Below are positions 25,548-43,594 of a stretch of DNA of 51,249 nucleotides, piece after piece. Position numbers and translations under genes: made by a program. Under the pieces are notes generated by a model. It did not search any database and was not told the DNA's origin. It saw only the letters and a list, made by a program, of their open reading frames with translations. The DNA is taken from contig JAFXDD010000038.1 of the NCBI GenBank assembly GCA_017516285.1, positions 1 to 51,249 of the forward strand, given 5' to 3'. Positions within the stretch are counted from its first letter, which is position 1. The number at the start of each line of letters is the position of its first letter. The stretch comes from Lachnospiraceae bacterium. GTDB taxonomy: Bacteria > Bacillota_A > Clostridia > Lachnospirales > Lachnospiraceae.

Positions 25548-27185
25548 CTATTTTAAGCCATAGAATACATTGTAAGCATCCTGATATATTTCAGTAATTT
25601 TATCAAGCTGCATGCCTTCACATTTCTTTACATATTCATCCCATGTCTTTTCCAGATCATAGTTTCCGGTAATAACGCCTACAAAGTAATCATCACAGTA
25701 CAAACCAAGGTCAGCTGTTAAGGTGGCAAGGGTTGCAGACTGTTCATCCGTAAACTTCAAATAATTCTGGAATGCAAAGGCAGAATAATCAGTACAATAC
25801 TCGGTTCTTCTCTGTGCTAAAGTTGTACCTTTTGCTGCAGAAGGCTTTGCATCAGCTTTCATCCAGTAATTAACATAAAATGTGGTAGGACCGCTTTGGT
25901 ATACCCAAGAATCACTTGCGGTCACTCCAAAACCATTTTCATCAAGCTTATAATCCACGCCTTCCAAACCATAAACAGCAGTCTTAGATGCTTCAGCACT
26001 GTAGATATAATCTAACACCAGCATACATACCTCAGGATATTCCGTATAAGCGGAAATTGCTGCGATATCCGGATTGTATAGTGCAGAAGTCGCAACAAGC
26101 GGCTTATCACTAACGGCACTTGTCAGAGGCGCATCCAAGAAAAAGGCACCGCTTCTTCCTGCATAGTTTGACTTTTCAGGATCGTCATAAGTATGATTCA
26201 TAAATACTAAATCAGCTTTATTCTTTGCATTTCTCTGCTCAGAGGTCTGAGTAAAGAGCTCTTGATCCAACATGCCTTCTTCATAGAATTTGTGCAGCCA
26301 GGATAAGAGATACTTATATTCCTCACTGGTCGGAACAAAAAATACTTCGTCATTTTTCTGATCAAAGACACAACCGCTAACCGGCCAATAGCAGGCAATA
26401 CCTACCATAGAAAGCGCGCCTCTATAAAAATCTTTTGTCGTGGAAGACCAGCAAATTTCATTTCCTACAATGCCGTCGCCATTTGCGTCCGCCTTCTGAA
26501 TTGCCTTGAAAACCTCATACAGTTCTTCAATGGTCTTAGGAGCATCCTTCTCCGCATCCAAACCGGCATTTTCCATAAAACGACTGTTTAATACATAAAT
26601 ACTAGCAGACCTAGAGTCGCTGATGGAAGGAATGCTATAAATATGACCATCTGCACTCTTCGCGCCACCCTCTGCAGCTTCAACGGTAGCGAAGGCTTCC
26701 TTAATATTAGTGCTATACTGTTCAATATATTCATCCAACATTAATAAATGGCCACTTGCACCATACTGCTGTACCTTTGTTGAATCAAAACCTACATTAA
26801 AAAAGATATCCGGCATTTCATCCGGTGTAGCCATAATAAGAGCAAGCTTGCTTGCTAATTCTTCCTTTGCGTAGGACTCTACTTCAAAATGGATACCGGT
26901 TTGTTCTTCTAACCATGCCCAATAACCGGACTTATCTGCAGTTTCATATGCTTTTCCGGTAGCATCTTGAGTAAGCACCTTCAGGGTAATCTTTTCGTTT
27001 ACGATAGGGAGAGAACCCACATTGTAAAGCGGTGTTTCTTCCACTACCTGTGTTTCGCTTTCAGAGGTTACTGTCTCTGATGTCTCATTTTTACCGGATG
27101 TTTGTTCATTACCACAACCGGTAGCACATGCTGTCAGCATAGACACTGCTAACAACAAGGATAAAAGTTTTTTACATTTTTTCAT
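25548..27185 (-). CDS. extracellular solute-binding lipoprotein of sugar ABC transporter (LplA/YtcQ-like)
   Basis: This 545-residue protein binds oligosaccharides outside the membrane and delivers them to the two permeases. It has a lipoprotein signal peptide with lipobox L-T-A-C20, followed by an acidic and Ser/Thr-rich linker, then a solute-binding fold. The start at 27185 has a strong AGGAGG site; an ATG at 27254 lies upstream in the leader. Length and sequence style match the LplA/YtcQ group that imports pectin-derived oligosaccharides. It has its own promoter and a terminator, which fits the high amount normally made. Confidence 0.9.
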   Translation of the reverse strand: MKKCKKLLSLLLAVSMLTACATGCGNEQTSGKNETSETVTSESETQVVEETPLYNVGSLPIVNEKITLKVLTQDATGKAYETADKSGYWAWLEEQTGIHFEVESYAKEELASKLALIMATPDEMPDIFFNVGFDSTKVQQYGASGHLLMLDEYIEQYSTNIKEAFATVEAAEGGAKSADGHIYSIPSISDSRSASIYVLNSRFMENAGLDAEKDAPKTIEELYEVFKAIQKADANGDGIVGNEICWSSTTKDFYRGALSMVGIACYWPVSGCVFDQKNDEVFFVPTSEEYKYLLSWLHKFYEEGMLDQELFTQTSEQRNAKNKADLVFMNHTYDDPEKSNYAGRSGAFFLDAPLTSAVSDKPLVATSALYNPDIAAISAYTEYPEVCMLVLDYIYSAEASKTAVYGLEGVDYKLDENGFGVTASDSWVYQSGPTTFYVNYWMKADAKPSAAKGTTLAQRRTEYCTDYSAFAFQNYLKFTDEQSATLATLTADLGLYCDDYFVGVITGNYDLEKTWDEYVKKCEGMQLDKITEIYQDAYNVFYGLK

Positions 27186-27269
27186 TGTTTTCCTCCTAAT
27201 TAAGAATACATTTATCTCAATGCTGTATACGTATAATTTTCTGTCATTGCGCACTAACTTACTAATTAT

Positions 27270-27299
27270 ATTATACAGCTTTCGATCTTAAGATTGCAA
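27270..27299 (-). promoter_or_regulatory. candidate internal promoter of the binding-protein gene
   Basis: On the minus strand, TTGCAA (27294-27299), 18 nt, TATAAT (27270-27275) forms a plausible promoter in the 130-nt gap before the binding-protein gene. A perfect ATCTTAAGAT palindrome (27284-27293) lies in the spacer. TGTCA/TGACA (27315-27329) lies just upstream. Confidence 0.5.
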
Positions 27300-27315
27300 T
27301 ATTTTCGTGATTTTG

Positions 27316-28224
27316 TCAGCCTTTGACAGACCCTATCATTACACCCTTAGCAAAGTATTTCTGTAAATACGGATATATAAGCATCATCGGCAATGTAGAA
27401 ACCACAATCAGACAATATTGCATAATCGTAGCAATTCGTATATTTGCCATTGCATCCGCAGCATCTATCGCCCCTTCATCAATCATATTTTGCATTGCCT
27501 TTACAGACCAAAGCAATCTTCGAAGCACCAGTGTTAAAGGACTTAATTCCTTGTCACGCAGATAAATCATCTCGGTAAAATAGCTATTCCAACGTGCCAC
27601 ACCATTATACAATGCAATTACAGCAATAACCGGCTTTGACAATGGCAAAACTATCTTTGTAAAATATCTGCCATTTCCACATCCATCTATTTTGGCTGAG
27701 TCAAACAATTCATGCGGTATAGAAGATGCAAAAAAGGTTCTGGCTATAATCAAGTGTGAAGCTGTACATAAGCTTTGAAGGATAATGGCCCATCTGCTGT
27801 TCATTAAACCAAGGTTATAAATATTCAGATATCCCGGAACCATACCACCGCCTATGTACATTGTTACCAAAATCACCGTAAGAAACAGCTGTCTTCCCAC
27901 AAAATCTTTTCTGGACAAGGCATATGCACACGGTAATGTTACACAAAGACTACATACTACATCTAAAACAGTATTAATAATAGTATTGGCATATCCGGTC
28001 CACACATCCTCTTTCTGTAAAATCATCTTATACCCTTCTACAGTAAAACCGTTCGGCCAGAAAACCGTACCTATGATCTCACTACTGAATGAAATAATCA
28101 CAACATAATATAATGGGTAAAGGCATACTATAAAAAATAAAAATATTAATGTATAATTTACTATATCAAAGACTTTATTTGATAAGCTTTGAGCTTTCCA
28201 TTTTGTCCATTTTGTATGTTTCAT
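27316..28224 (-). CDS. carbohydrate ABC transporter permease (LplC/YtcP-like)
   Basis: This 302-residue inner-membrane permease has about six membrane segments and the binding-protein-dependent transport signature in HELFDSAKIDGCGNGRYFTK, which docks the ATPase. The ATPase itself is not encoded here, as is usual for this group, which shares an MsmK-type subunit. The start at 28224 is chosen because AAGGAG lies 7 nt upstream; an ATG at 28254 would overlap the previous gene. The paired permease ends 10 nt upstream. Confidence 0.93.
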   Translation of the reverse strand: MKHTKWTKWKAQSLSNKVFDIVNYTLIFLFFIVCLYPLYYVVIISFSSEIIGTVFWPNGFTVEGYKMILQKEDVWTGYANTIINTVLDVVCSLCVTLPCAYALSRKDFVGRQLFLTVILVTMYIGGGMVPGYLNIYNLGLMNSRWAIILQSLCTASHLIIARTFFASSIPHELFDSAKIDGCGNGRYFTKIVLPLSKPVIAVIALYNGVARWNSYFTEMIYLRDKELSPLTLVLRRLLWSVKAMQNMIDEGAIDAADAMANIRIATIMQYCLIVVSTLPMMLIYPYLQKYFAKGVMIGSVKG

Positions 28225-28234
28225 CTGTCTCTCC

Positions 28235-29209
28235 TTACCATAAACTGTTTTCATTGCTTATCTTACGTATAATTGTATTTACCAGCACTAACATCGTTAC
28301 ATTAACAAGTGAGTTAAATAAACTTACAGCAGTAGAAAAACTATACTGTGCTCCCATTAAACCTACACGATATACATAAGTAGAAATTACCTCAGATGAC
28401 ATTAAAATTGTATCATTGGATAATAAATATACCTTTTCGTATCCGACGCTTAAAATTCTTCCGCATTGTAAAATCAATTGAATTATAATGGTAGGAATAA
28501 TGGACGGTATATGAATATGTATAATGCACTGCAGCCTGTTTGCACCATCTACCTCAGCAGCTTCCACTAACTGGGTATCTACACCGGAAAGTGCTGCAAA
28601 ATAGATTACAGATCCCCATCCGACATTTTGCCATGTACCGGACAATACATAAATCCACTTAAATGCCGAACCTATGGTAGACAGATTAATGGGATTTAAT
28701 CCCATACTCTCCCTTATATTATTTACTGTCATACCCAGCAAACCGGTAGACGGACTTAAAAACATAGTGATTGCACCACAAAGAACAACCGTAGAAATAA
28801 AATGCGGTGCATACGTTACCGTCTGAACAACTTTACGAAGCTTGAGATTTTTCACTTCGTTTAACATCAGCGCCAGAATAATAGGCAATGGGAAATTGAC
28901 TGCTAACGAAAGAATACTAAGCGTCATCGTATTTTTCATAACCGTACCGAACCATGCTGAGTTAAAAAAACGAATAAAGTGTTCAAAACCAACCCACTCA
29001 CTTTGTCCAAATACCTCTCCTACTTTATAGTTCTGAAATGCTATCTGAATACCATAAATTGGTCTGTAATGAAATATAATATAAAATAACATTGCAGGAA
29101 GAACAAATAAATATAATAGCCAATTCCTACGAATGCTTAATAATTTCATCTTGCGTGCTCTTTGTTGCACTTCCCGTGAAACAGTTGTTTTATTTTTGTT
29201 AAAACGCAT
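28235..29209 (-). CDS. sugar ABC transporter permease (LplB/YteP-like)
   Basis: This 324-residue permease has about six membrane helices and the EAA-type docking motif in QLVEAAEVDGANRLQCIIHI. It pairs with the LplC-like permease to form the channel for oligosaccharides brought by the binding lipoprotein. It is the first gene of the third polysaccharide transcription unit, directly behind a hairpin-promoter module. The ribosome site is GAGAGG, with ATG at 29209. Confidence 0.93.
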   Translation of the reverse strand: MRFNKNKTTVSREVQQRARKMKLLSIRRNWLLYLFVLPAMLFYIIFHYRPIYGIQIAFQNYKVGEVFGQSEWVGFEHFIRFFNSAWFGTVMKNTMTLSILSLAVNFPLPIILALMLNEVKNLKLRKVVQTVTYAPHFISTVVLCGAITMFLSPSTGLLGMTVNNIRESMGLNPINLSTIGSAFKWIYVLSGTWQNVGWGSVIYFAALSGVDTQLVEAAEVDGANRLQCIIHIHIPSIIPTIIIQLILQCGRILSVGYEKVYLLSNDTILMSSEVISTYVYRVGLMGAQYSFSTAVSLFNSLVNVTMLVLVNTIIRKISNENSLW

Positions 29210-30100: not shown

Positions 30101-30125
30101 TTCCTTCCTCCAAAATCCACAAAAC

Positions 30126-31469
30126 TCACACCGGTAACAAATCCGTCTCACAACCTTGTACATAATAAGGCTCTGACATTTCTGCCCGCATTACCTCATC
30201 TGCCTCTACAGAAAACCCTCTGAATTTTACTTCCGAAGCATTTACTGCATATACCGCATACAAATTATCGGTAATAACCTCCTGCTTATAGGTAGGTCTG
30301 AGATCATGATAATCTCTCTTCCAATTAGTTTTTGCTTCAAGCTTTAAGCTGACATTCTCAAAAGTAATATTTTGTATCCTGTCCGGTGTATCTCCATAAA
30401 GCAAAATACCATTTTCGCTGCAGCAGTTTATATTTGTAAACCGGACATTTTTTATGTGACCCAGTGTGGTACTTTCCTTTCTTGGAAGTGCCGTAACCGC
30501 AATAGGCTCCGCACCACCCCACCAATGCTCTCCGGAAAAGTGTCTGGTATCGATATTAATATTGCTAAACAGCGCATTTTCAATACTTCCCTTATCCCTA
30601 AGCTGTAAAGAAATTCCGCGATTGGTCTTGTTGATATTGCAATTCTGTACTACAATATTTTTAAACAAAGCCTCACTCTCGGTACCAATCTTGATAGCCG
30701 CGCTGGTAGACATCAGCGTACAGTTTGCAATCACGATATTTTCACAGTTTCCGTTCTCCATGGCGCCTTCTGTATTTTTCAGCACGATACAGTCATCTGC
30801 ACACTCTATATGGCAATTGACAATTCGCACATTCTGACAATGATCCGGGTCAATACCGTCACTACTGCCCATGCGCAGGTTATTGAGGATACGAATCCCA
30901 TCTATCAACACATCCTGACATCCTACCATATGTACCGTCCAAAAAGCACTGTTTGTCAGCGTTACCTGTTGGATGGTCAAATGGGAAATATGCTCCAGAA
31001 AAAGCATCGGCATGCGCGGATAAAATGCTCCGTCGATATGCCATGGTGTCACTTTTCCGTAAAAAATTTCTTCATTGCCGTCAATCTTGCCAAAACCCGT
31101 AATAGATACGTATTCACAGTCCTTTGCATAGATAAAATAGTATGCCGGTCTGCCACTGTAATCGCTATTGGCATAGGACGGTTTTGTACTCTCTTTTTCC
31201 GGTTCTTGCTTGTTCTTTGCAAACAGTCTGAAATCCTCAAGCTCATCGCTGGCCTTCAGCACTGCCCCCATCTCCAAATGGAGTTCCACATAGGATTTTA
31301 AAACAATACTTCCTGACCGGTAGGTTCTTCCGCCCGGTATCAGAACACGACCGCCGCCTTGTGCATGACAGGTATCGATTGCTTTTTGTATAGCCCCAGT
31401 ATCCATGCTGCTTCCGTCACCGACTGCACCATAATCCAGTATGTTGTGTATCGTACTTCTACTAATCAT
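30126..31469 (-). CDS. glycoside hydrolase family 28, rhamnogalacturonan/polygalacturonase-like
   Basis: This 447-residue right-handed beta-helix enzyme cleaves galacturonic-acid-type linkages. The N-terminal DYGAVGDG signature and the acidic pairs of GH28 are present: SDGIDPD and ADDCI. The usual GHG histidine and RIK motif are replaced by KIGTES and ISLQLRD, so the specificity may differ from normal polygalacturonase. There is no signal peptide, so it is likely cytoplasmic. It overlaps the GH36 gene end by 8 nt with its own GGAG site, so it is coupled to it. Confidence 0.88.
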   Translation of the reverse strand: MISRSTIHNILDYGAVGDGSSMDTGAIQKAIDTCHAQGGGRVLIPGGRTYRSGSIVLKSYVELHLEMGAVLKASDELEDFRLFAKNKQEPEKESTKPSYANSDYSGRPAYYFIYAKDCEYVSITGFGKIDGNEEIFYGKVTPWHIDGAFYPRMPMLFLEHISHLTIQQVTLTNSAFWTVHMVGCQDVLIDGIRILNNLRMGSSDGIDPDHCQNVRIVNCHIECADDCIVLKNTEGAMENGNCENIVIANCTLMSTSAAIKIGTESEALFKNIVVQNCNINKTNRGISLQLRDKGSIENALFSNINIDTRHFSGEHWWGGAEPIAVTALPRKESTTLGHIKNVRFTNINCCSENGILLYGDTPDRIQNITFENVSLKLEAKTNWKRDYHDLRPTYKQEVITDNLYAVYAVNASEVKFRGFSVEADEVMRAEMSEPYYVQGCETDLLPV

Positions 31470-33303
31470 CCAGTATTTCTCCTTTCACAAGCATTACTTC
31501 CTGTGGTATTCTCAAAGACTCTTCCAAAGAAACATCAGCCCTTTCCTCCAACAGATTACCGGTATAGTCATAAAAACGCATGCGATACCTTTTATTACCT
31601 GTTCCATGTAAAAGGAGTTGTTTTTTAACAGAAGCATTTAAAAGCTGGAAATTACCGGACTCAATCATAAATTCCTCCGCAGAATTAACTGCAAAATACA
31701 GATTTTCGCATTCTCCCTCAATCACCCATTTTTCCAGCATTTCATCCAATGCTCTGCGTTTGTAATTTTCTCTTTCTACAATGTTTTCAATATACCAATT
31801 GTTCAAAAACCTAATCTGCTGTTTTTTATCTTCATTCAACGCCACCAAATCCATGGAATAGGTAGGAATACCTACCGCCAACATCTTGATAATCACTCTT
31901 GCAGATGAGGCTAAGGTATCGTAATTCGTAATTGTTTGATAATCATTGACTGCATATGGTGTATAACTCTGTATATATGCTGTTCTAAGGAAATTTCCTT
32001 CCGGACAGTATGGGGTATCACCGGATCTCATCATGGTGCCATAGGTTGCCAGCCTGCTACCGCCGTAATTCTGCTTCAGCTCCACCATATAATCCGGCTT
32101 TTCCGCTCTCACCTTTTTCCAGATTAATTCCATAGTCTTCTCAAGTCCCACCATCATGGAATCCGTATCATGAGAATGTTCCTTGCAACAGCATTCTATC
32201 TCCGGTACACAATTAAACAAATCATACTTTGCTCCGTCCGTATCGTAATCTCTTGCCAGATGTACACAAATATCCGCCATAATTTCTCTTGCTTTTGGAC
32301 TTCTCATACACAGTATGTTAAATCCATTTCTGGTATAAACAAGCTTATCTTCGGCATCCCTCACCAGATACTTTTCTCTTGCCGATCTCATTTTGGCAAT
32401 ATCACCTACCGCATGTGGTGCACACCATATTACGGATTGGCCGCCTTTTTGGCGAATTTTTTCAGTAAGCTTACGTAAATCAGGGAACTTGGATAAATCA
32501 CTTTCCCAATCACCAATGTCCAGCTTCTCGCTCATATCGCAGTCCAAGCCTTTGCCAAACCAGCCATCATCCAGAATATAATTCTGAATGCCCAACTTTA
32601 CCCCCTCTTCTACATTATCTAAAACAATCTGCTCGTTTACATCTGCGGAATCCCAGTCAGTCCAGCTGCACCACAAGGGATACATACTCTTTTGAGTGTA
32701 TGGAAATACAATTTCTTCCCATTTCTGTCGAATTTCATGAAACTCTCGAAGTGCTTCCGTCCATGGAATGCCCGTATCGAGTGTCTCATCCATCAAATAA
32801 ACACCCTCTTTGTAAACATCCTCCCGGTATTCCTCTGGTATTTCCCCTGTAATCTGCAATGTAAGGGTTCTTCCGTATAAAGAAAGTGCCCTGGCGCCGT
32901 GTGGCTCTAAGCTATTGAAGTCACGCTCATAATCCTTACCAATCACCCCAAAGCAAAGACTCGCACAATTGTCCTGACCACACAAAATATATAGCGGACT
33001 TTTTACATCATACACTCTGGAAGCAAAGTTTTTCGTCCAGAAATAAACCGGCTGAATCGTGTGGAAATAATCCCTTCCGCTGTCCGGTGCAATCACATTA
33101 TTAAAATTACGCAAAGCAGTGGAATAAGTATGAGATACGCTTCTTACTCTGTCTTCTTCCACATGTACTGAAATCTTGGAACATCTCCCTTCTTTTTTTA
33201 CACATACCAATATCTGCTCCTGTTGATATTCCCCACTTTCCAGAGACATATTGTTAAAGCAATATTCCTTATTTTTTTCTGTAACAATTTTTAATGAATA
33301 CAT
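31462..33303 (-). CDS. glycoside hydrolase family 36 alpha-galactosidase-like
   Basis: This 613-residue enzyme shows the GH36/melibiase layout: an N-terminal beta domain, then the barrel with YILDDGWFG, the nucleophile Asp in GAKYDLFN, and the acid/base Asp in MRSGDTPY. It should remove alpha-galactose or a related residue from imported oligosaccharides. It has no signal peptide. The start at 33303 is selected by AAGGAG. It is the first gene of unit B and lies behind hairpin-promoter module 2. The exact sugar is uncertain because GH36 includes several specificities. Confidence 0.88.
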   Translation of the reverse strand: MYSLKIVTEKNKEYCFNNMSLESGEYQQEQILVCVKKEGRCSKISVHVEEDRVRSVSHTYSTALRNFNNVIAPDSGRDYFHTIQPVYFWTKNFASRVYDVKSPLYILCGQDNCASLCFGVIGKDYERDFNSLEPHGARALSLYGRTLTLQITGEIPEEYREDVYKEGVYLMDETLDTGIPWTEALREFHEIRQKWEEIVFPYTQKSMYPLWCSWTDWDSADVNEQIVLDNVEEGVKLGIQNYILDDGWFGKGLDCDMSEKLDIGDWESDLSKFPDLRKLTEKIRQKGGQSVIWCAPHAVGDIAKMRSAREKYLVRDAEDKLVYTRNGFNILCMRSPKAREIMADICVHLARDYDTDGAKYDLFNCVPEIECCCKEHSHDTDSMMVGLEKTMELIWKKVRAEKPDYMVELKQNYGGSRLATYGTMMRSGDTPYCPEGNFLRTAYIQSYTPYAVNDYQTITNYDTLASSARVIIKMLAVGIPTYSMDLVALNEDKKQQIRFLNNWYIENIVERENYKRRALDEMLEKWVIEGECENLYFAVNSAEEFMIESGNFQLLNASVKKQLLLHGTGNKRYRMRFYDYTGNLLEERADVSLEESLRIPQEVMLVKGEILDD

Positions 33304-33383
33304 AATTTTTCTCCTTCGCTCTTCTCTAAAATACATTAATCATCAATTTCTCTCCTTGATCACGTCTTGTTATTTGCACTTTA

Positions 33384-33515: not shown

Positions 33516-34424
33516 TCACTCTCCCTTTGTCCAATAGTATTTCTTATAATTCCTAAGCAAAAACGCACCAAGAATAATAAGTAATATTATTATCCACCAT
33601 AGCCAGTTTCCTTGGATTCCATCGGAAGTCTGCTCGATGTATGATTCGGTTGCTTCCACCCACTTTGCATACAGGCTCATATTGCCTTCCACCGTGTCCT
33701 CGTCAAAGTCCCATTCCTCAGTCAGGTGGATATCCGTGTACCACCCTTCCAGTTCATAGCCTTCTCTCTCCGGTTCCTCCGGGAGTGGTATCTTTTCACC
33801 GAATTGTACTGTGATATCTTCCAGTTCACTGCCACCATTGGTCCGGAAGGTTACCACACAGTCCGTGGTCAGAATAATGGTCAGTTCATTAGCTTCGCAT
33901 GGATAACTGCCGCTTCCGTCTTTGTATGACACCAGATAATCCTCACTGGTAATCTTCGTCACACCACTGTCTCCCGTGACCTTTAACTGGAAGCTTCCGA
34001 TCAGGGTGTCCGCATTCCACTTCTCTCCGCCTCCCATGGACAGGTAGTTCATATAAAATTCCCGGTACCGGTCCACCATGGCAATATCCGTGGATGCAAT
34101 ACCATTTCCAAGCATGGCACTGCCTTCCACCAGTTCTAAGAAAGTACTGTCATAGCGGATCTCATCCTGCATGGCATACATGGTATATGCTTCGCCTGCA
34201 TCGGTTCTTTTCAGTCTGAGAACCACCGTAATCACATCCCCGGGCTCCACTTCCTTCGTATCCTTTCCGTCTACGGAAAGCTCAAACTGAAATTTTTCTT
34301 CTGCCGCCTGTACCGGCAGAACTACATGAGGGAGCAAAATACCGGCCAGGATCACTGCCAGCAATGTTCTTACTATGTTTCCCATCTCTCCACTCCTCTG
34401 TCTTCCTATTCGCTTTACAGGCAT
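33516..34424 (-). CDS. membrane-anchored cohesin-like protein (anchoring scaffoldin candidate)
   Basis: This 302-residue surface protein has a signal peptide (about 1-40, ending VQAAEE), one cohesin-like beta domain (about 42-190; pattern VEPGDVITVVLRL, then EIRYDSTFLELVEG), one Listeria-Bacteroides type repeat (about 190-250, with GYELEGWYTD and LYAKW), and a C-terminal membrane helix followed by a short basic tail. No sortase motif is seen. It likely holds dockerin-bearing proteins on the cell. An internal ATG at 34382 with GAGGAG is an alternative start; the start codon at 34424 lies in a hairpin. The cohesin call rests on visual pattern only. Confidence 0.72.
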   Translation of the reverse strand: MPVKRIGRQRSGEMGNIVRTLLAVILAGILLPHVVLPVQAAEEKFQFELSVDGKDTKEVEPGDVITVVLRLKRTDAGEAYTMYAMQDEIRYDSTFLELVEGSAMLGNGIASTDIAMVDRYREFYMNYLSMGGGEKWNADTLIGSFQLKVTGDSGVTKITSEDYLVSYKDGSGSYPCEANELTIILTTDCVVTFRTNGGSELEDITVQFGEKIPLPEEPEREGYELEGWYTDIHLTEEWDFDEDTVEGNMSLYAKWVEATESYIEQTSDGIQGNWLWWIIILLIILGAFLLRNYKKYYWTKGE

Positions 34425-34454
34425 CCCACCTCCCTGATGAAAGATGAGATGCCT
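34419..34454 (-). promoter_or_regulatory. intercistronic hairpin over the anchor gene's start codon
   Basis: AGGCATC (34448-34454 on the minus strand) pairs with GATGCCT (34419-34425), closing over the GGAGG site and containing the ATG at 34424. It could reduce translation of the anchor protein or mark an RNA processing site between the adaptor and anchor genes. Confidence 0.5.
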
Positions 34455-34467
34455 TACCTTATCCTGC

Positions 34468-36588
34468 TTATTCGGTTACGATTCCTAATATCTCATTTAC
34501 GATATATGCTGCATCCGTAGTATCAATCTTATAGTCTGCATTTCGGTCTGCCTTGATAAACTCGATCATGGTCACCTCTTCCGTAAATGCGGAATACTGT
34601 GCATTATACATATTCCATACATACTGTGCATCGCTTGCATCCAGCTTTCCGCTGCCGTTTACATCGCTGCTGTCTGCAACCGTTACCGGGGTACCTTCCG
34701 TAATACCGATCACTGCTTTTGCAGCATCTTCGCTCAGGGTACCTGCGATCGTGAGGTAAATGTATGCCTGATGGTTTTCTGACCAGTACATCGGATTTCC
34801 ATCATAGGTAGGTACTCGGTTATCTGCCAGTTTTGTCGCATAACTTACGGCATAAACCGTTCCGCCACTGACATTAACTTTATCGTTAACCATAACGCTT
34901 CCGGTATCTACCATTCGGTCGATAGTAAATACGATATTTCCGGTAACCGCAGGTGTGGTATAGGCAGTTCCGTCTGCATTTTTCGTCAGTTCAACTGCTT
35001 CACCACCCATGGTTGCCGTAATGGTATAGATGTATCCGGCTTCCGGTGCCACCGTAAGCACATATGCCTTGCCTGCTTCTGCACCGGTTTCATATCCGGC
35101 TGCAATGCCTGCGCCCTCACCGGTCACAGATACCGTAGCCTCTGCAAACGTTTTTTCTACGGTAACCACTACTGCTCCGGTAATGTCACCACCCGGAATG
35201 GTATATACGTTACCTTCTGTGGATACGGTATAGCCCGTGTAAGCTTCTCCGTTCATGGTCATGCTTACCTTGTATCCATAGCCTTCTACCATGTTTATCT
35301 TAAATACATATGGTGTATTATAGGTTGCGTTTTCACCGGCTGCTGCACTTCCATCTTCGTTGGTCACATCCGCTGCACCGGTTCCTTCGATGGTCACGGC
35401 ATAGCTCTTCGGAGTCTTTTCTTTCAGTGTGATTACCAGGTCAGCCGTCACTTCCTCTACTGTAAAGGTTACACCGTCCTCACTGGTAACCGTTACATCC
35501 TGACCGCCCATAACTGCACTAAATTCATAGGTATAATTGGTATCCAATATCTTAAACTCATATGCAGAACCTGCGGTTACGGATGTGGCACCTTCCACCA
35601 GCCCTGTCAGTTCGGAAGGAAGGGTCACCTCAAACTGTTCTTCATTGATCGTCAGGTTTACCGTACCCGGGTTGATCACAGCTGCCACCAGATCGCTCTG
35701 GCTTGCTCCGGCTTTGTCGATAAAAGCTGCGGAGTCCAGAGTTACCGCTGCAGAACCTGTTGCAATGGCCTCAAATACCAAAGTATAAATGTTGCCAAAC
35801 TCTCTGTCATCACCGTAATTTGCGATCTGCAGCTTGCCATTTTCCGCATCCACGGTTATTTCTGCACCGTTTAATGTAGATGCATCTTCTGCCCAGGTAA
35901 GCTTGCTCTTGTCATAGGATACCGTAAGCTCATCTGCATTAAACTTGGTCTGTGTTGCATGACCTGCAGAAACCTTGATACTTACCGTCTCTCCCTTTTC
36001 TACGGTAACGCTTTCTGCGGAAATACCTGCAGTATATCCTTCTGCTGCATCTGCGGCTTCCACAGTCAGGGTAGCCATTGCGGATGCTGCATCTTCCCAG
36101 GTAATTAAATTATATTGGGTTCCCTCAGCCTCTACCTCTGTCAATTCCAGATTCTCAAAGCCTACGGTGTAAGAACCTGCCGGAGTATTTGCCGGAACAG
36201 TAAAAGTGATCACGGCCAGTTCGGTAACACCTTCCACGTTTACGGAAGCATCCGCAGAACCCCATGCGGCTTTGCCATTAGCCGTATTGGTTCCTGATGC
36301 ATCATAGGCACCGATTTTCTCCCCACCGGTAATTCCGGCAATGCTTAATCCATCCGCCCATACAACATCAAAACCAATACCATTTACGGTAACTGCCTGG
36401 TTAGCCCTGATCCGCATCACAACCGTCTGGTCGGTATCACTTACCTTTACGGACGGAGTATCCAGCTCCGCCGTAAAGGTAATCCCACGTTCATTGTTTT
36501 CGTTTGCGGCACTTACTGCCACCATATTCCCCATACACATCGTCAGGCACAATACAAAAGTCACAAACTGTTTCAAATACCTTTTCAT
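34468..36588 (-). CDS. cohesin-like plus dockerin adaptor protein (adaptor scaffoldin candidate)
   Basis: This 706-residue secreted protein has a signal peptide (about 1-28, ending VSAANE), a cohesin-like domain 1 (about 33-175), a cohesin-like domain 2 (about 180-320), three related beta repeats (about 325-600), and a C-terminal dockerin (about 640-706). The dockerin's calcium loops read DVNGSGKLDASD and DRNADYKIDTTD. Residues 10-11 of the loops are AS and TT, unlike the NA pairs of the large enzyme, so it should bind a different cohesin. The start at 36588 is chosen for the AAGGAAAGG site and the signal peptide. It probably links the dockerin enzyme to the anchor. Confidence 0.75.
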   Translation of the reverse strand: MKRYLKQFVTFVLCLTMCMGNMVAVSAANENNERGITFTAELDTPSVKVSDTDQTVVMRIRANQAVTVNGIGFDVVWADGLSIAGITGGEKIGAYDASGTNTANGKAAWGSADASVNVEGVTELAVITFTVPANTPAGSYTVGFENLELTEVEAEGTQYNLITWEDAASAMATLTVEAADAAEGYTAGISAESVTVEKGETVSIKVSAGHATQTKFNADELTVSYDKSKLTWAEDASTLNGAEITVDAENGKLQIANYGDDREFGNIYTLVFEAIATGSAAVTLDSAAFIDKAGASQSDLVAAVINPGTVNLTINEEQFEVTLPSELTGLVEGATSVTAGSAYEFKILDTNYTYEFSAVMGGQDVTVTSEDGVTFTVEEVTADLVITLKEKTPKSYAVTIEGTGAADVTNEDGSAAAGENATYNTPYVFKINMVEGYGYKVSMTMNGEAYTGYTVSTEGNVYTIPGGDITGAVVVTVEKTFAEATVSVTGEGAGIAAGYETGAEAGKAYVLTVAPEAGYIYTITATMGGEAVELTKNADGTAYTTPAVTGNIVFTIDRMVDTGSVMVNDKVNVSGGTVYAVSYATKLADNRVPTYDGNPMYWSENHQAYIYLTIAGTLSEDAAKAVIGITEGTPVTVADSSDVNGSGKLDASDAQYVWNMYNAQYSAFTEEVTMIEFIKADRNADYKIDTTDAAYIVNEILGIVTE

Positions 36589-36603
36589 TTTTCTGCCTTT
36601 CCT

Positions 36604-36626
36604 TATATGCCACATCCGGGCATATA
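36604..36626 (-). promoter_or_regulatory. intercistronic hairpin between dockerin giant and adaptor genes
   Basis: TATATGCC (36604-36611) and GGCATATA (36619-36626) form an 8-bp stem with a 7-nt loop in the 46-nt gap. There is no T run, so it looks like an RNA stabiliser or processing site and not a terminator. Confidence 0.5.
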
Positions 36627-36634
36627 ATCCAATA

Positions 36635-39600
36635 TTACCAAATAAGTTCACTTTTTCCTGCATATGCCAAACGGAGCTTTGTTATATCCGCATTGGTGAT
36701 GGAATTACTTCCGTTCACATCCGCAAGTATTTCCTGTACCGCATCCAATTCCGTTTTCTGGGCATATGCCAGACGAAGCTTTGTTATATCTGCGTTGGAT
36801 ATCTTACCATCCCCATTCACGTCACCGGCTACCGCCACAGTAATCTGTGTATCTGCAGTCACGTTCTCTGCGGTAAAGCGGTAGCTGTTTTCCGCATCAT
36901 CGTCAGCCTTAGTCGCTGCAAGGCGTTCATAGGTCACACCACCGTCATAGCTTACCAGTACTACACTTGCTTTTTCAGAAGTAACGGTAAAGGTGTTGGT
37001 TCCTTCTGTCCAGCCGTCTGCAGGGGCAGTAATCAACGCAACGTTCTCTCCAATACCTGTGTTATTATTTATTTGTATTTCTATCTCGCTACCTACAGTC
37101 TTTTTCTCTAACGCATTAAAAGCAATTTGTAGTTCATATACTAACTCGTTAACAATCATCTGATCATAACTCGTTAGTTCCTTCGTTATTACTTCTGCGA
37201 TATCTACTACCTGCTGATATGCTGCCCAGGACTCTTCCGTATAATCGCCTTCTGTCAGTGTCTCTTCCTTCGCAAGTTCCGTTTCCAAAGCAGTGTAATC
37301 TGCCTTTTCTGCTTCGGTCAAATCTGCCAGCTTTAAGTGTGCTACACCATTTGTTGCCAATTTCTGAATAACTACACCAAAGCCATTATCTCCGATAACC
37401 GGATTCTCAGTATCCAGATAATCAATGATTACATTACCATCTACCTTAAATAAGATACGTACAGAACCATCCGCATTCTGCAAAGCGCCTAACTGAATGC
37501 TATAAGTTTGACCACTTGCAAACATCTTATCCTCACCGGTGTTTGTAATCTTAAGAAGATCAGCACCGGTAACCTTTTTTCCATCAATATACTTCTGCAA
37601 CTGAATTTCGTCACCGCTGAAGCATACAAAATAACCAGTTGAATTCGTAATAAACTTACCTCTATCACTCTGACCTATAGCAAAGCCATGCCAGTTGTTC
37701 TGCTGATCCAATGCAAAGTCAAAGCAAAGAATTTCTCTGCTGCCAATCAACTTGTCGTATACCACCTCTGTACGACTGCCTGTTTGGAAGGAAAGCTGAA
37801 GCTCATCTCCGGAAACCGCTGCCTGACCGCGTGCTGCACTCGGGTCAGACCACTCAGATGCATTCAGTTCTTCAAAGGTCACATACGTAACTGCTTTGCT
37901 TGCCCTTGCAGTTAAAATTGCACTTTCCAGCGCGGACACTGCTACATTCACGCCTGTCTGTTCTTGTCTTACTCCGGCATCCACTACTGCCTGAGCAATG
38001 GCAATCGCTGTCTGAAGACTTTCTTTGCTGCCGTCATAGTAAAGGCCGCCTTCAGAAATTTCTGTCATCTGAGCCATCACTGTATTGGCCTCCTGGATTA
38101 CCTCCGTAAGCTCGGTTAAATCTGCTGAATTGTATTGGTAATAAATGTCCTCTGTCATCGTCTTGAAGGAACTTACTGTACTGCTTACCGGAGTTGCAAC
38201 CCTGGACTCAGCCGTAGTATTCGCAGTTACCTTCCAGTAACAGGTCTGACCAAAGCCAAAGTACTCATCATGATCCATGTAAAGACAGGTATCTTCTACC
38301 GTAAATTCTTTTACGTTTTCTGTAAGTGCTTCATTGGATGCTATCGTCACCCGGTAGGTATCTGCGCCTCCTGCAAGGGTCCACTTTAACAATACGTTAA
38401 ACGGATCCACTTCTTCAAATGCTGCTGCCGGAGCATATAAGCTAAATGCCTCAATTCCCTTCTTTTCGCAAAGTACGCCGACTCTGGACATATTTAACGG
38501 AGCATATGTAAATGATGTTTCTACGCCGCTCTTTAATGCATAATCGTGATTTGCAGCATCCGCGAACGGATCTTCCGTAAATACGTCGTTATCGATTACC
38601 ACATGTTCTCTTCCGGCAAAATCCACTCCACCAAAGCCTACAAGGATATTATTCTTTGCATAATTGCCTTCTGCCATATACAAACCTACACCGGTATCTG
38701 TGCTTCCACCGGCTGCTGCAATGGCTGCTGCTATCTTTTCATAAAGATCTGCATATCCCGGATATCTTTGCTTAAATACTAACTTGTCTGCCTCACTGTA
38801 AGAAGCCCACAATTCGTACATTTGCTTTGGTGTAGAAGATCTTTCCCAACGTTCTGCAATCGTCTTATCCGCCATCTTTTCATTACCGAAAATACCGGCT
38901 TCATTTCTGCCCTCTCTAAAACTCATTACCACATTGTCCACAACTACATTGTCGCTGCCAAAATGAAGATAGACTCCATTCTGTACATTTGTCATAACAT
39001 TACCGTAAACAAAATTGCCCCTTGCTCCTTCATCCAGATAAATGCTGTGCGGATTACCCTGCTTACTGAAACGTGCTGTGTCATGTATATAATTGTAACG
39101 GATATGATTTCCGGTCTGGCCACCTGCAGGCGACGCATAAATAGAACCGTAGTCGTAGGTACCATCCGGTCCGCCCACAATTTCATTATATTCTACGATA
39201 CATTCCGCTGCTGCATAAAGATAAATACTCACCGCATAGGTGCCCTGAATCAAGTTATGAGATACTACATTCTGTACACCTTCAACATAAATCGGCGTGT
39301 TGGAGATTCCAACCATACCGGTACTATAAATATAGCAATTTTGTACAAAATTGTGTTCCGGTTCATCATATTTGTGCGTACTGCATGGCCAACCAACTTG
39401 CACCGGTCTTTCACTTATTTCATAAATTTCAGAATAAATAATACCGCTATTTTTACCATATACTTTGGCACCGGTATGCACCTTACGAATTACGCAATTC
39501 TGGACCAAAATATTTTGACTGCCGCTGCTGATATTAATACCTGTTCCGCCGCTATTTTCAATTGTAATTCCATTCAGTACAATATTGGAAGCTCCGCTTA

Positions 39601-42040
39601 TGCTAAACAAATCGCTGGCATTCGCAGTAAAAGAGACGGTCGCAGTACTCATATCCCCTATCGGATAAATATATAATTTGCCTGTAGCATGATCCAGGTA
39701 GAATTCACCCGGTACGTTCAATTCCTCTAATACATTATAGTAGTAATAGGTGTGACTCTTAGCGCTGACTGCACCTTCTACTACACCACCCTCCAGTTTA
39801 ATAGATGATGTCGCTGTACGAATTTCCGCTACACGGCTATGTCTCTTTGCCCATTCTACTGCAAGATTTCCGTAAAGCCAGATATTACCGTCATTTTCCC
39901 ACATAGTAGGACGTAAATCCTGCATTACAAATTCTGTACCGGTAGAGTCAGAATTGTATCCATTATTAAAGTTACCGGAGCCTGACGTAACCGGTCCTAC
40001 ATCCAATACTTCTCCCAATGGCAGATTGGTTGCATCCGGATACCTTGCTAATGTCAGCTTTTCGCCGTTCATTTCTACAGAATAGTTTGGTCCGCCGTAC
40101 CTTCCGGAAACAATACTGCCAAATTCAGAAATTCCTAATTCCTTCAGATCCACCACCATGATCTGATCTCTTATGGATTCCTGTAACCTGTTCAATACCG
40201 TTTCATCCGTTACCTTGGTAAAGCTTGTACCTGCTATGTCCGTTCCTCCGGTCACAACTACTTCGTCATCCCCATAGGCACTGATAATTACCGGAATACC
40301 ATTTGTTCCGGAATGTTTCTCGTTTAATACAATAGAATCCGATGCTACATAGATACCCTCATGTAAATAAATAACAATACCCTTTACATCTAAATTCTCC
40401 AAAGCTTCTACATAGCTGAGTGCTTTGGTAATGGTTTTAAATGGTGAAGCCATACTTCCGTTATTATCATCATTTCCCTGTGGAGAAACATGCAACTCCA
40501 CTTCTCCTTGAACCGTTACCGGCTCAATTACCTTTACTTCTGTAGCTGCTTCGCCCAAATCGGCTACTTTTTGTTGATATACTTCATAAGCATCTGCATC
40601 CGCATCAATTGGAGTAAAGTTACCATTCGGAAGCCCCAAATCCAGATTTAATGCTGTGCCTGGAGTACCGGATTCTCCGATAGATATGGATGCTTTTTCC
40701 ATAGTCCAATAAGTACCGTTTGCATCACCGGTACATGCCAGCTGATAATCCATAGGGTCCATTAAGTTAAAAATGTCCGCTGCTGTGCTGCTTGGCGCCT
40801 GAATTAAAGGATTTGTGGTCTGCCACTCAGCGCCTGACTTAAAAGCAACTACTTCTATCTTTTCTGTCGGTGCAAATTCAAACTTTAACAAACTATTGTC
40901 TGTCATCTTAACCCCGGTCATACCATCCCATGCCGCTGCTATCTGTACGGTACTGTTGGTCAATCCCAGATAATCGAAACCGGATATGATTCCCGGTATT
41001 GCCGTGGATAAGTCATATCCAACCAGATTCAATGTTGCCGGTCCGTTCAGTTTTGCAACATAATTTTTATCTGTATTCGCAGGTTCTACTGCAGACACGG
41101 TACCAACCGTTGCATCTTTCTTTATGGTAATGGTGACACCATCGCCGCCAACATTTGCCTGGTTGCAAACTCCATAACATTTATTTACGTTTCCTCCATT
41201 GATGGTAATCTCTACCTTGGACTGCACGCTTGAGTTAATGTTTGAAGTTCCGTAAAGGGTATCGATAACACCACCATTCACGGTAACAGACATGTTGGAA
41301 TAAGTAGAAGTCCATGAACAGGTTCCCGCATAGAACTTTTGAAGCTTGCCGCTGTTCATAACAAACGCACTGGCTTTATTATTATCATTATTGTAACTTA
41401 AACCTGTCTTGGCACGCTTAAATCCTAAATATACTGTTTGGGCAGGATAATAGCTTAAATTGGAATCTCCTGTAATCCCGTCTCCTAATGTCAGGTTGTA
41501 AAAGCCTGCATACAGCTCCTTTGCATAAGACGATATGTTAATATTTTCAAAGGTCGTGGCTCCCTGCAGCATATATTGCTTATCCTTACCGCTGCCGAAG
41601 CTTAAAGATGCTGCCTGTGTATAATCTTCTGCACCTATCTTAGAGGTGAGCACAACTTCTCCGCTGTGAGCAGGGAACATTAAAGTATTCTTGTACTTAT
41701 CAGCGTTTTCAATTGTAAGATAACTGATTAAACCACTATCGGATGCGTCTACATTTCCGCAAATCACGATATAGGTTTTCTCATTACCTTCTCCAATCAA
41801 GGCATAGGCCTCCGCCAAAGTCTTAACTGCTGTGTCCTTAGTCAATCCGTCCGCTGTATCACTTCCCACACCGTCAACATAAATTTTGTTTACCGTTGTG
41901 GTTGTTACCTCCCCGGAGCCACTTCCCTCCGTCTCTTGCGCCGAAACTGTCAGCTTCATAGCCGGCAGATACGGCAGGATACTTCCTGCTATCAGGCAAA
42001 TAACCAACAGCAGATGTAACCATTTTCTTTGTTTTTTCAT
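36635..42040 (-). CDS. secreted multidomain beta-helix protein with C-terminal dockerin
   Basis: This 1801-residue extracellular enzyme candidate has a signal peptide (about 1-35), a first repeat-rich beta-helix region (about 45-430), and a second right-handed beta-helix (about 510-1180). The second opens with a VSPQGNDDNNGS segment and includes LARYPD, resembling GH141-type glycosidases. A fibronectin-type domain, two FIVAR-like helical segments around a ConA-like lectin domain, and a type I dockerin (about 1740-1801) follow. Both dockerin calcium loops begin DVNG and carry the pair NA at positions 10-11, followed by ITKLRLAYA. The likely target is pectin or rhamnogalacturonan, with the dockerin fixing it to a cohesin partner. 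The GH family assignment is inference. Confidence 0.82.
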   Translation of the reverse strand: MKKQRKWLHLLLVICLIAGSILPYLPAMKLTVSAQETEGSGSGEVTTTTVNKIYVDGVGSDTADGLTKDTAVKTLAEAYALIGEGNEKTYIVICGNVDASDSGLISYLTIENADKYKNTLMFPAHSGEVVLTSKIGAEDYTQAASLSFGSGKDKQYMLQGATTFENINISSYAKELYAGFYNLTLGDGITGDSNLSYYPAQTVYLGFKRAKTGLSYNNDNNKASAFVMNSGKLQKFYAGTCSWTSTYSNMSVTVNGGVIDTLYGTSNINSSVQSKVEITINGGNVNKCYGVCNQANVGGDGVTITIKKDATVGTVSAVEPANTDKNYVAKLNGPATLNLVGYDLSTAIPGIISGFDYLGLTNSTVQIAAAWDGMTGVKMTDNSLLKFEFAPTEKIEVVAFKSGAEWQTTNPLIQAPSSTAADIFNLMDPMDYQLACTGDANGTYWTMEKASISIGESGTPGTALNLDLGLPNGNFTPIDADADAYEVYQQKVADLGEAATEVKVIEPVTVQGEVELHVSPQGNDDNNGSMASPFKTITKALSYVEALENLDVKGIVIYLHEGIYVASDSIVLNEKHSGTNGIPVIISAYGDDEVVVTGGTDIAGTSFTKVTDETVLNRLQESIRDQIMVVDLKELGISEFGSIVSGRYGGPNYSVEMNGEKLTLARYPDATNLPLGEVLDVGPVTSGSGNFNNGYNSDSTGTEFVMQDLRPTMWENDGNIWLYGNLAVEWAKRHSRVAEIRTATSSIKLEGGVVEGAVSAKSHTYYYYNVLEELNVPGEFYLDHATGKLYIYPIGDMSTATVSFTANASDLFSISGASNIVLNGITIENSGGTGINISSGSQNILVQNCVIRKVHTGAKVYGKNSGIIYSEIYEISERPVQVGWPCSTHKYDEPEHNFVQNCYIYSTGMVGISNTPIYVEGVQNVVSHNLIQGTYAVSIYLYAAAECIVEYNEIVGGPDGTYDYGSIYASPAGGQTGNHIRYNYIHDTARFSKQGNPHSIYLDEGARGNFVYGNVMTNVQNGVYLHFGSDNVVVDNVVMSFREGRNEAGIFGNEKMADKTIAERWERSSTPKQMYELWASYSEADKLVFKQRYPGYADLYEKIAAAIAAAGGSTDTGVGLYMAEGNYAKNNILVGFGGVDFAGREHVVIDNDVFTEDPFADAANHDYALKSGVETSFTYAPLNMSRVGVLCEKKGIEAFSLYAPAAAFEEVDPFNVLLKWTLAGGADTYRVTIASNEALTENVKEFTVEDTCLYMDHDEYFGFGQTCYWKVTANTTAESRVATPVSSTVSSFKTMTEDIYYQYNSADLTELTEVIQEANTVMAQMTEISEGGLYYDGSKESLQTAIAIAQAVVDAGVRQEQTGVNVAVSALESAILTARASKAVTYVTFEELNASEWSDPSAARGQAAVSGDELQLSFQTGSRTEVVYDKLIGSREILCFDFALDQQNNWHGFAIGQSDRGKFITNSTGYFVCFSGDEIQLQKYIDGKKVTGADLLKITNTGEDKMFASGQTYSIQLGALQNADGSVRILFKVDGNVIIDYLDTENPVIGDNGFGVVIQKLATNGVAHLKLADLTEAEKADYTALETELAKEETLTEGDYTEESWAAYQQVVDIAEVITKELTSYDQMIVNELVYELQIAFNALEKKTVGSEIEIQINNNTGIGENVALITAPADGWTEGTNTFTVTSEKASVVLVSYDGGVTYERLAATKADDDAENSYRFTAENVTADTQITVAVAGDVNGDGKISNADITKLRLAYAQKTELDAVQEILADVNGSNSITNADITKLRLAYAGKSELIW

Positions 42041-42060: not shown

Positions 42061-42079
42061 TAATGCAATTCTAGCATTA
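42061..42079 (-). promoter_or_regulatory. intercistronic hairpin between GH28 and dockerin giant
   Basis: TAATGC (42061-42066) and GCATTA (42074-42079) form a 6-bp stem with a 7-nt loop at the GH28 stop codon, just before the AAGGAGG site of the dockerin gene. It is one of a series of small hairpins at successive junctions of this operon. Confidence 0.45.
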
Positions 42080-43594
42080 TAAACAACTTATTCTTTCAAA
42101 TGTAATGTTCTCACATAAACGTAAGGATAATGTTTGCTCTTTGGGTAATTTATCCGAACCAATTTTTATATCACGGAATGTAATATCCTTAATTTCATGA
42201 CCCGGTTCATCAAATCCGCAAAGCTCAATTGCCGAACACTCACACCATTCTCTTTGTTTGCTAAAATATGCTCCACTGAGAGATAATCTTTCAAAGATAC
42301 ATTTTTCAAAAATCGGAGCAACACCGGCAGAAATTCCGTCATCATTGTATCCTACAGAATGGAACATGACTCTTGGAAGTTTACAATCCTTTACATTAAC
42401 ATTCCTCACGTAACCGCCACGCTTCTTTGTAGCTTTTATTTCAAGACCAAACCAAGAGTTCTCAAAGTCACAATCCCATATTTTAACATCATTGATACCA
42501 CCAGACATTTCACTACCCACAGTAACTCCATGTCCAAACTTACTAACACAGTCAAAGACTCTAATATGTTCACAAGGACGATTGATAATGTTACCTTCCG
42601 GATTTTTTCCGGATTTTATGGCAATAGAATCATCCCCGGTATAGAATGTTGTGGCAAAAATCGTACAGTTTGTAGAAGAGTCTGGATCCCATCCATCTCC
42701 ATTCCAAACTTCTTCGGAAGTAAACACACAATTATGAGTCACGATATTATCTGAATAAATCATATGTACATTCCAACTTGCACCATTTGAAAACGTTAAT
42801 CCGGATAAAATTACATTCTGGCAATTACTCATATTAACAAGTCGCGGTCTTACTCTGCCCGGAATGGTACGTGAATTTTGATACTCTTTAATTTTATCTC
42901 CTAACTCTTCTAAATAGTCTTTCAAACGTTCACGTTCCGACTCTATCACTGCAAGTGCCAATTCCTTTCCACCACTGGCAATAGTTCCTTTTCCATGAAT
43001 AAAAATGTTCTTACAGTTATATCCACCAGCATGGTCTAAATCCCCCATGTTCAATACACTACTATAGCAGGATAATTCTGTACCTTCAAAACGACTGGGT
43101 ATCCTTGGCAAATAATCTTCTACACAAGACGTTCCCTGTAATACAGCACCTTCTTCTAAATAAATTTCCATGTCACTATGCAACTTTAATGCACCGGTCT
43201 TAAAAATACCTGCCGGAATATACAACACATCTTCAATGGTACAATCATCTATTGCCTGCTGTAAAACCTTTGTATTCAAAGTCACACCATTACCAACTGC
43301 ATTGTAAGGAGCTTTAGTAATATCTTTTCTATTCTTCTTTTGAGCTGTACCTATAACACCATACTCAAGACTTGATATGTATTCTCCTGCCTCCACTATA
43401 TCCACTTTTACACAATACTCATGACTATCATTCAAATTATCAATAGTACAGTGTGTTTTATTTGTTTCCAATACAAGCTCACCATCTATATATACCTTAT
43501 AGATGATATTTTTTGATGCATTATCTGGCTTGTCCCAATATAGGGTAATCGACTTATCCGTTACAAAATATTTATAATAATTAATATTATACAT
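42077..43594 (-). CDS. glycoside hydrolase family 28 polygalacturonase with N-terminal FN3-like domain
   Basis: This 505-residue enzyme has a fibronectin-like beta domain (about 1-90) followed by the GH28 beta-helix. All GH28 signatures are here: NGDGWDPDSS, TGDDSIAIKSG, GHGVTVGSEMSGG and EIKATKKRGG. It cuts homogalacturonan or oligogalacturonides, possibly as an exo-enzyme. No signal peptide is apparent, in contrast to the dockerin giant behind it, so it may act inside on imported fragments. It follows the serine hydrolase gene by 22 nt. Confidence 0.92.
   Translation of the reverse strand: MYNINYYKYFVTDKSITLYWDKPDNASKNIIYKVYIDGELVLETNKTHCTIDNLNDSHEYCVKVDIVEAGEYISSLEYGVIGTAQKKNRKDITKAPYNAVGNGVTLNTKVLQQAIDDCTIEDVLYIPAGIFKTGALKLHSDMEIYLEEGAVLQGTSCVEDYLPRIPSRFEGTELSCYSSVLNMGDLDHAGGYNCKNIFIHGKGTIASGGKELALAVIESERERLKDYLEELGDKIKEYQNSRTIPGRVRPRLVNMSNCQNVILSGLTFSNGASWNVHMIYSDNIVTHNCVFTSEEVWNGDGWDPDSSTNCTIFATTFYTGDDSIAIKSGKNPEGNIINRPCEHIRVFDCVSKFGHGVTVGSEMSGGINDVKIWDCDFENSWFGLEIKATKKRGGYVRNVNVKDCKLPRVMFHSVGYNDDGISAGVAPIFEKCIFERLSLSGAYFSKQREWCECSAIELCGFDEPGHEIKDITFRDIKIGSDKLPKEQTLSLRLCENITFERISCL

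Follow-up and report, generated by a model that had tools for sequence, protein, structure and literature searches.

Do three adjacent genes suffice to hold an enzyme at a bacterial surface in the manner of a cellulosome? The question arises from contig JAFXDD010000038.1 of a Lachnospiraceae bacterium, analysed as one stretch of 51,249 bases (hereafter the window), in which a dockerin-bearing enzyme, an adaptor protein with two cohesins and a dockerin, and a membrane protein with one cohesin (the anchor) are encoded side by side (Table 1). An original prediction, made from the letters of the DNA alone, took them for a full enzyme-adaptor-anchor chain of three proteins dedicated to pectin. We consider it probable that the genes encode a minimal, membrane-anchored docking platform of cellulosome-like type with exchangeable cargo, and we class the system as cellulosome-like, not as a proven cellulosome.

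The three open reading frames (ORFs) sit where they had been placed, and domain searches agree with the roles assigned to them. Pfam recognises a beta-helix in the secreted 1801-residue enzyme, together with a dockerin that has paired calcium loops. In the adaptor it finds Cohesin over two stretches (25.6 bits, cut-off 24.1) and Dockerin_1 (25.4 bits, cut-off 22.9). The adaptor profile matches Protein Data Bank (PDB) chains titled "putative cellulosomal scaffoldin protein" over cohesin 1 (best E 8e-7), which we take to come from Ruminococcus flavefaciens, and the cohesin 2 profile (A5) matches a cohesin of scaffoldin adaptor B (3l8q, E 1.4e-9) and that of NagJ (2jh2, E 4.9e-5). With the hydrophobic N-terminus, these matches place the cohesins on a secreted, non-catalytic scaffoldin. 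The X-like region with its dockerin (XDoc) gave a profile, A4, built from 23 of the 26 available sequences, with weak matches to the solved dockerins 4uyq (E 0.014) and 8ajy (E 0.019) and to parvalbumin EF-hands at 0.21; judged by position and conservation, the X-like region probably represents an X module. Pfam finds no carbohydrate-binding module (CBM) in the adaptor, whose middle part (aa about 341-590 of 34468-36663) consists of conserved modules with no Pfam match. Its start is likely at 36588, as originally read, given a purine-rich stretch ahead of it. The anchor scores 24.4 bits against Pfam Cohesin as a whole protein (cut-off 24.1) and more as an isolated domain, and ends in a hydrophobic helix. 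Such a helix lies in the C-terminal half of 116 of the 120 anchor homologues listed (976 found), and none of these 120 has an LPxTG motif, which speaks against sortase-type attachment. A second B-repeat follows the membrane helix in 33 of the 120 (e.g., L006:10001-11065), where a simple topology would put it in the cytoplasm.

The same arrangement recurs in relatives. Across 22 loci (the window, 20 loci found with the anchor, and L061), an adaptor-type gene with cohesin and XDoc lies upstream of the single-cohesin anchor on the same strand in 20 (L013 being counted with only the cut XDoc end of such a gene), is fused to it in L019 and is absent from L014, so the adaptor-anchor linkage exceeds what chance would give. 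In 15 of the 22, the adaptor block has a dockerin gene immediately before it (gaps -29 to 219 bp), and the predicted enzyme-adaptor-anchor order, closely spaced on one strand, is supported; two pairs of loci, L007/L008 and L011/L012, are near-duplicates, which lowers the number of independent cases. Between adaptor and anchor, four loci (L006, L009, L011, and L012) have a further dockerin protein of 229-250 aa with a Pfam cohesin. The sources of 10 of the 20 loci name the ruminant gut and the remainder name no host. Interrupted anchors occur in L014 (9869-10642) and genome G291 (L088:9927-10556), with no adaptor within the 30-40 kb examined; the G291 anchor is adjoined by a reading frame that we take to be transposase-like.

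Gene fusions link the parts further. Among 33 proteins of the enzyme search (the window's included), eight end in a cargo-type dockerin and three are fusions, while 22 are neither, some of them possibly incomplete. In the fusions (P0252, P0259, and P0260), a beta-helix of the enzyme family continues into an adaptor cohesin 2 and XDoc. L019 (7928-10753) encodes a single 941-aa chain in which cohesin 2 and XDoc are joined to an anchor-type cohesin and a second dockerin, and which has neither a B-repeat nor a C-terminal membrane helix; this chain could link to copies of itself, and no other genome of the set gave as many dockerin matches. Fusions of this kind connect the partners functionally and do not prove that they bind.

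In the assembly that we propose, the symmetric dockerin of the enzyme would bind a cohesin of the two-cohesin adaptor, and dockerins of other GH141-type enzymes encoded elsewhere would probably do the same. The asymmetric XDoc of the adaptor would then bind the anchor's one cohesin, which is strongly conserved. A single C-terminal helix of the anchor is predicted to fix the chain to the membrane, with the B-repeat as a spacer. Held in this way, the GH141-like enzyme would cut a pectic polymer at the cell surface; fragments would enter through the ATP-binding cassette (ABC) importer encoded nearby and be finished inside by two GH28 enzymes and a melibiase-like enzyme, placed in the cell because they have no evident signal peptide. 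Related gut Clostridia would have kept adaptor and anchor and exchanged the cargo.

The cargo of the window is a GH141-like enzyme. A profile of 19 enzyme homologues (A7) matches the GH141 alpha-L-fucosidase BT_1002 (5mqp) at E 1.1e-64 and 9rx2 at E 2e-68, and the single sequence alone reaches BT_1002 at E 5.5e-10; Pfam GH141_M is weak on the window enzyme (15.4 bits, cut-off 27). BT_1002 requires D523 and D564, according to PMC12786026. If the construct is offset by 5, these are chain positions 528 and 569, and their spacing of 41 agrees; aligned with them are D963 and D1003, and aspartate stands in both columns in all 19 rows of the profile. The window enzyme thus appears to share with the GH141 enzymes BT1002 and Xyn141E its beta-helix, and to keep the aspartate pair essential in BT_1002. 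The same source (PMC12786026) gives pectin, xylan or fucoidan as substrates within the family, so family membership leaves the substrate unsettled; the two GH28 genes nearby speak for pectin. A dockerin-bearing GH141 enzyme was known before, namely Xyn141E of Clostridium thermocellum (PMC5593877).

The original description of a three-protein system is probably an undercount. Two other proteins with GH141_M, P0268 (2000 aa) and P0269 (1844 aa), lie on contigs other than the window and have C-terminal cassettes 94 and 78% identical to that of the enzyme, over 7 and 8% of its length, respectively. Their Pfam dockerin scores (19.6 and 18.3) fall under the cut-off of 22.9, so counts by Pfam miss such clients. 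The window itself encodes one dockerin enzyme; further clients of its system are likely, and three proteins as the sole reading was rejected on account of the two cassettes. A search with cargo dockerins gave matches in 20 of 21 genomes. The tally of cargo frames per genome, which omits adaptor frames, the L019 fusion and proteins of 229-256 aa and may include incomplete genomes, was none in four, one in six, two in six, three in four and six in one.

What the relatives dock is varied. In a scan of 16 dockerin proteins (13 beside adaptors and 3 elsewhere; those of L005, L006, and L010 are cut by contig or locus ends), a beta-helix was found in L001 only, 50% identical to the window enzyme. Other cargo carries BspA-type leucine-rich repeats (LRR; L002), Big_2/GLUG (L018), GLUG (L009 and L011), Big_9 (L015), Fn3_assoc (L020), Big_2 (L010), FIVAR (L007) or, in L065, which is not beside an adaptor, PQQ/cadherin-like domains; in L004, L006, L060, L069, and L015:3231 the dockerin is the sole domain recognised. 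Because of this variety, the docking platform looks general and its link to pectin local. Dedication to pectin therefore suits the window, with its two GH28 genes, and fails for the family, where one of the 13 cargo proteins beside adaptors (that of L001) shows a beta-helix; the idea of a pectin-dedicated family was rejected, the relatives' cargo comprising LRR, Big/GLUG and unrecognised proteins. The same spread of domains favours an alternative that overlaps with our proposal, in which the chain is real and serves as a general platform for surface display or adhesion, holding mainly large binding or adhesive proteins, with the enzyme as one cargo. We regard it as a serious contender that is nonetheless unlikely: the window cargo has both GH141 aspartates and sits among GH28 genes, and cargo that goes unrecognised may consist of undescribed enzymes.

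Two binding steps would call for two kinds of dockerin. Internal symmetry is typical of enzyme dockerins with a dual binding mode, and asymmetry of anchoring dockerins. Identity between the two repeats of a dockerin averages 57% for 39 cargo-type dockerins and 30% for adaptor dockerins, of which 17 out of 26 allowed scoring. Leaving out three badly paired ones (L011:3795, L012:3389, and L061) gives an adaptor mean of 31% (n = 14, p = 3.5e-5, a guide only, as the sequences are related), and dropping near-duplicates and proteins of up to 260 aa gives 61% (30 cargo-type) vs 31% (13 adaptor). In the window the values are 0.77 for the enzyme and 0.36 for the adaptor, and 13 of the 15 dockerins directly before an adaptor block score at least 0.55. 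A symmetric enzyme dockerin and an asymmetric adaptor dockerin are what two binding steps would predict. The original prediction had drawn the two steps from loop positions 10-11, NA/NA in the enzyme and AS/TT in the adaptor; these residues are as stated and show two dockerin classes suited to two binding steps, but a class is not equal to a binding preference.

Several results weigh against the proposed chain. The symmetry classes overlap: repeat identity in 15 of the 39 cargo-type dockerins does not exceed that of the most symmetric adaptor dockerin (0.41), and the dockerins directly before the adaptors of L007 and L008 score only 0.28 and 0.32. Seven of the 22 loci have no dockerin gene before the adaptor (L003, L013, which is cut, L014, L016, L017, L019, and L061). 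Pfam scores of the window domains are close to their cut-offs, and the anchor-cohesin profile, compared with solved structures at E <= 10, yielded nothing beyond a chance match and thus no solved cohesin; in comparison with the adaptor profiles its probability was 52.8% for cohesin 2 and 12.0% for cohesin 1, whereas the two adaptor profiles reached 72.2% with each other. Finally, mirror-tree comparison over 14 loci lent the preferred pairs no support: anchor cohesin vs XDoc gave r = 0.08 (Mantel p = 0.25) and adaptor cohesin 2 vs cargo dockerin r = 0.09 (p = 0.17), the only correlations being XDoc with cohesin 2 of the same protein (r = 0.73) and anchor with cohesin 2 (r = 0.25, p = 0.0075).

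The mirror-tree outcome could point to other wiring, in which XDoc binds adaptor cohesins, so that adaptors chain, and cargo dockerins dock straight onto the anchor cohesin; two or three tandem cohesin-XDoc genes in L006, L009, L011, and L012 would permit such chains. We think this improbable. Mean pairwise identity in the 14 loci is 0.59 for the anchor cohesin, 0.43 for XDoc, 0.33 for adaptor cohesin 2 and 0.35 for the cargo dockerin, a strongly conserved anchor cohesin set against diverse cargo dockerins. Moreover, the asymmetric and better conserved dockerin is encoded by the gene adjoining the anchor, and the enzyme-adaptor fusions end in XDoc, which marks it as the free docking end.

As to the cohesins, which had first been recognised by pattern, Pfam upholds them in adaptor and anchor, and solved cohesins in the adaptor only. 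In the family samples, drawn from the 20 loci of the anchor search and L061 (near-duplicates dropped; 22 of 24 anchor cohesins and 23 of 25 adaptor cohesin-2 domains), Pfam Cohesin was matched at E <= 0.01 by 21 of 22 and 19 of 23, respectively, and every other Pfam family matched at most one member; NCBIfam had no cohesin or dockerin hit for enzyme, adaptor or anchor. Since its profile finds no solved cohesin and its profile comparisons are weak, the anchor domain is best described as a divergent cohesin, recognised as such by Pfam alone. That the "cohesins" are other beta-sandwich spacers and the dockerin-like units calcium-stabilised caps, with no assembly at all, would fit the near-cut-off scores and the anchor profile and is very improbable, given that Cohesin is the sole Pfam family for the anchor-cohesin members and the main one for adaptor cohesin 2, that adaptor profiles match several solved cellulosomal cohesins, and that of 20 anchor-bearing genomes 19 have Pfam dockerins and 19 Pfam cohesins.

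The docking platform may also represent a distinct, membrane-anchored class among gut Clostridia, a view that we hold tentatively and at somewhat less than even odds: a near-fixed pair of anchor cohesin and XDoc would act as a universal clip at the surface, the outer pair and its cargo (enzymes, LRR proteins, and unknown giants) would be swapped, the cassette would move between families, some lineages would fuse parts, and the L019 chain, which has both XDoc and the cohesin presumed to bind it, could polymerise. The anchor is rare in two families surveyed, being present in 2 of 299 genomes of that of G001 and 3 of 297 of that of G002 (centres included), and one of these hits, in G425, is weak and of other architecture. 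The G425 protein (L090:8658-10403; 581 aa, presumably PHP-like) combines a weak cohesin-like match with a dockerin at the C-terminus of the same chain. AddB (window 4899-8264) is 42, 41, and 27% identical to the window's in G010, G001, and G002, and the anchor cohesin (loci L010, L001, and L002) 60, 82, and 70%; the two orders differ, which may point to horizontal transfer of the anchor or to unusual constraint.

The neighbouring genes would fit uptake and breakdown of a pectin-type substrate. On the minus strand the order of transcription is GH28, enzyme, adaptor, anchor, melibiase-like gene, second GH28, DUF4886, ABC importer and, at the end of the series, a membrane-bound AraC-type regulator, with gaps of 36, 46, 82, and 179 bp from GH28 through melibiase when inner start codons are used. 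Among the products of 18 genes checked, permeases and the membrane-bound regulator set aside, a hydrophobic, secretion-type N-terminus is confined to four: the enzyme, the adaptor, the anchor and the binding protein of the ABC importer. The DUF4886 gene is third after the anchor in the window (29372-30163) and directly after it in L001 (9707-10429), and no pectin gene was seen among seven ORFs scanned next to the L001 chain. Just upstream of the operon lies a gene for an Rpn/YhgA-like putative transposase or nuclease (45047-46030).

Table 1. Features of the docking locus and its neighbours in the window (aa, amino acids).
Feature	Position	Strand	Evidence or remark
GH28, no evident signal peptide, 36 bp upstream of enzyme gene	42077..43594	-	Pfam E 2.3e-24
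Secreted GH141-like beta-helix enzyme, 1801 aa, C-terminal dockerin	36635..42040	-	Pfam Beta_helix, FIVAR, Dockerin_1; hydrophobic N-terminal stretch
GH141-like catalytic beta-helix, about aa 514-1045	38906..40501	-	family profile A7 vs BT_1002 (5mqp), 9rx2
Codon of D963, counterpart of the essential D523 of BT_1002	39152..39154	-	profile A7 alignment
Codon of D1003, counterpart of the essential D564 of BT_1002	39032..39034	-	profile A7 alignment
FIVAR module, aa 1581-1644	37109..37300	-	Pfam 32.8 bits; two stretches in protein
Cargo dockerin, symmetric, aa 1739-1791, positions 10-11 NA/NA	36668..36826	-	Pfam Dockerin_1 27.3 bits
Secreted adaptor: two cohesins, middle modules, X-like region and dockerin	34468..36588 (longer ORF starts 36663)	-	
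Adaptor cohesin 1	36052..36501	-	adaptor profile A2 vs 5n5p E 8e-7, also 5m2o, 5aoz
Adaptor cohesin 2	35644..36045	-	Pfam Cohesin 29.1 bits; profile A5 vs solved cohesins
X-like region and asymmetric dockerin (XDoc)	34486..34896; dockerin proper 34486-34668, positions 10-11 AS/TT	-	Dockerin_1 25.4 bits
Anchor protein, 302 aa: cohesin, B-repeat, membrane helix	33516..34424 (alternative start 34385)	-	
Anchor cohesin	33855..34301	-	Pfam Cohesin 27.0 bits, E 5.7e-6, domain alone; strongly conserved
InlB-type B-repeat (Flg_new / List_Bact_rpt)	33657..33857	-	Pfam E 2.3e-19; profile A1 vs InlB B-repeat chains
C-terminal membrane helix, aa 272-290, basic tail	33555..33611	-	hydropathy scan
Melibiase-like glycosidase, no evident signal peptide	31462..33336	-	Pfam PF02065 E 1.3e-14
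Second GH28, downstream, no evident signal peptide	30126..31469	-	Pfam E 1.1e-19
Sugar-type ABC importer: binding protein and two permeases	25548..29209	-	

Chains that look whole recur in genomes that have, for the most part, one to three cargo dockerins each, and this makes the purpose of a scaffold testable where there is almost nothing to scaffold. With its anchor conserved and its cargo diverse, the system provides two candidates for orthogonal binding pairs, along with a ready module for surface display. The findings also suggest that cohesin-dockerin docking extends to a locus of pectin type and to cargo in which no enzyme can be recognised.

Searches of open-licence PMC papers listed no description of the anchor-adaptor family, and the system has partial likenesses to several known ones. 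The minimalistic cellulosome of Clostridium saccharoperbutylacetonicum, as outlined in PMC7157769, likewise has a two-cohesin scaffoldin and few dockerin enzymes, eight in number, and PMC7157769 calls a cellulosome of that size the smallest known; its scaffoldin has three X2 modules and two CBMs, whereas here there are 0 to 6 cargo frames per genome, no Pfam CBM in the adaptor and a separate membrane anchor. The mucinolysome of Limousia, presented in PMC12997984, where the amylosome is also named, is another cellulosome-like system of the gut for a substrate other than cellulose, and the dockerins at the C-termini of its scaffoldins are predicted to attach to a separate cohesin with an anchoring role, cSca5, likewise as here. 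It differs in the LPxTG anchor of cSca5, in its 26 genes for scaffoldins and dockerin-bearing carbohydrate-active enzymes (CAZymes) in ET540 and in its mucin substrate (PMC12997984). With Clostridium perfringens (2jh2, 2ozn; X82 cohesins) the adaptor shares a cohesin 2 that matches the NagJ cohesin, and the enzyme family a combination of FIVAR and dockerin, profile A7 weakly matching 2jnk; there, according to PMC12997984, each cohesin protein has a GH domain and a single cohesin, with no multi-cohesin scaffold. R. flavefaciens offers a parallel in gene order. Its cluster, as set out in PMC4081043, runs scaC, scaA, scaB, scaE, with the anchoring scaffoldin ScaE beside a scaffoldin, ScaB, that has a C-terminal X-dockerin, as in the loci described here, and its ScaC adaptor has both cohesin and dockerin. 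The same source places R. flavefaciens dockerins on leucine-rich-repeat proteins too, as on some cargo here (PMC4081043), and adaptor cohesin 1 resembles the PDB chains titled "putative cellulosomal scaffoldin protein". On the other hand, ScaE is described there as sortase-attached (PMC4081043), in contrast to the membrane helix of the anchors listed here; far fewer dockerins are found per genome, the anchor cohesin matches no solved cohesin by sequence, and the window system is placed within a sugar-uptake locus. By analogy, the window system would do what the R. flavefaciens cellulosome does at its anchoring end, with few cargo proteins.

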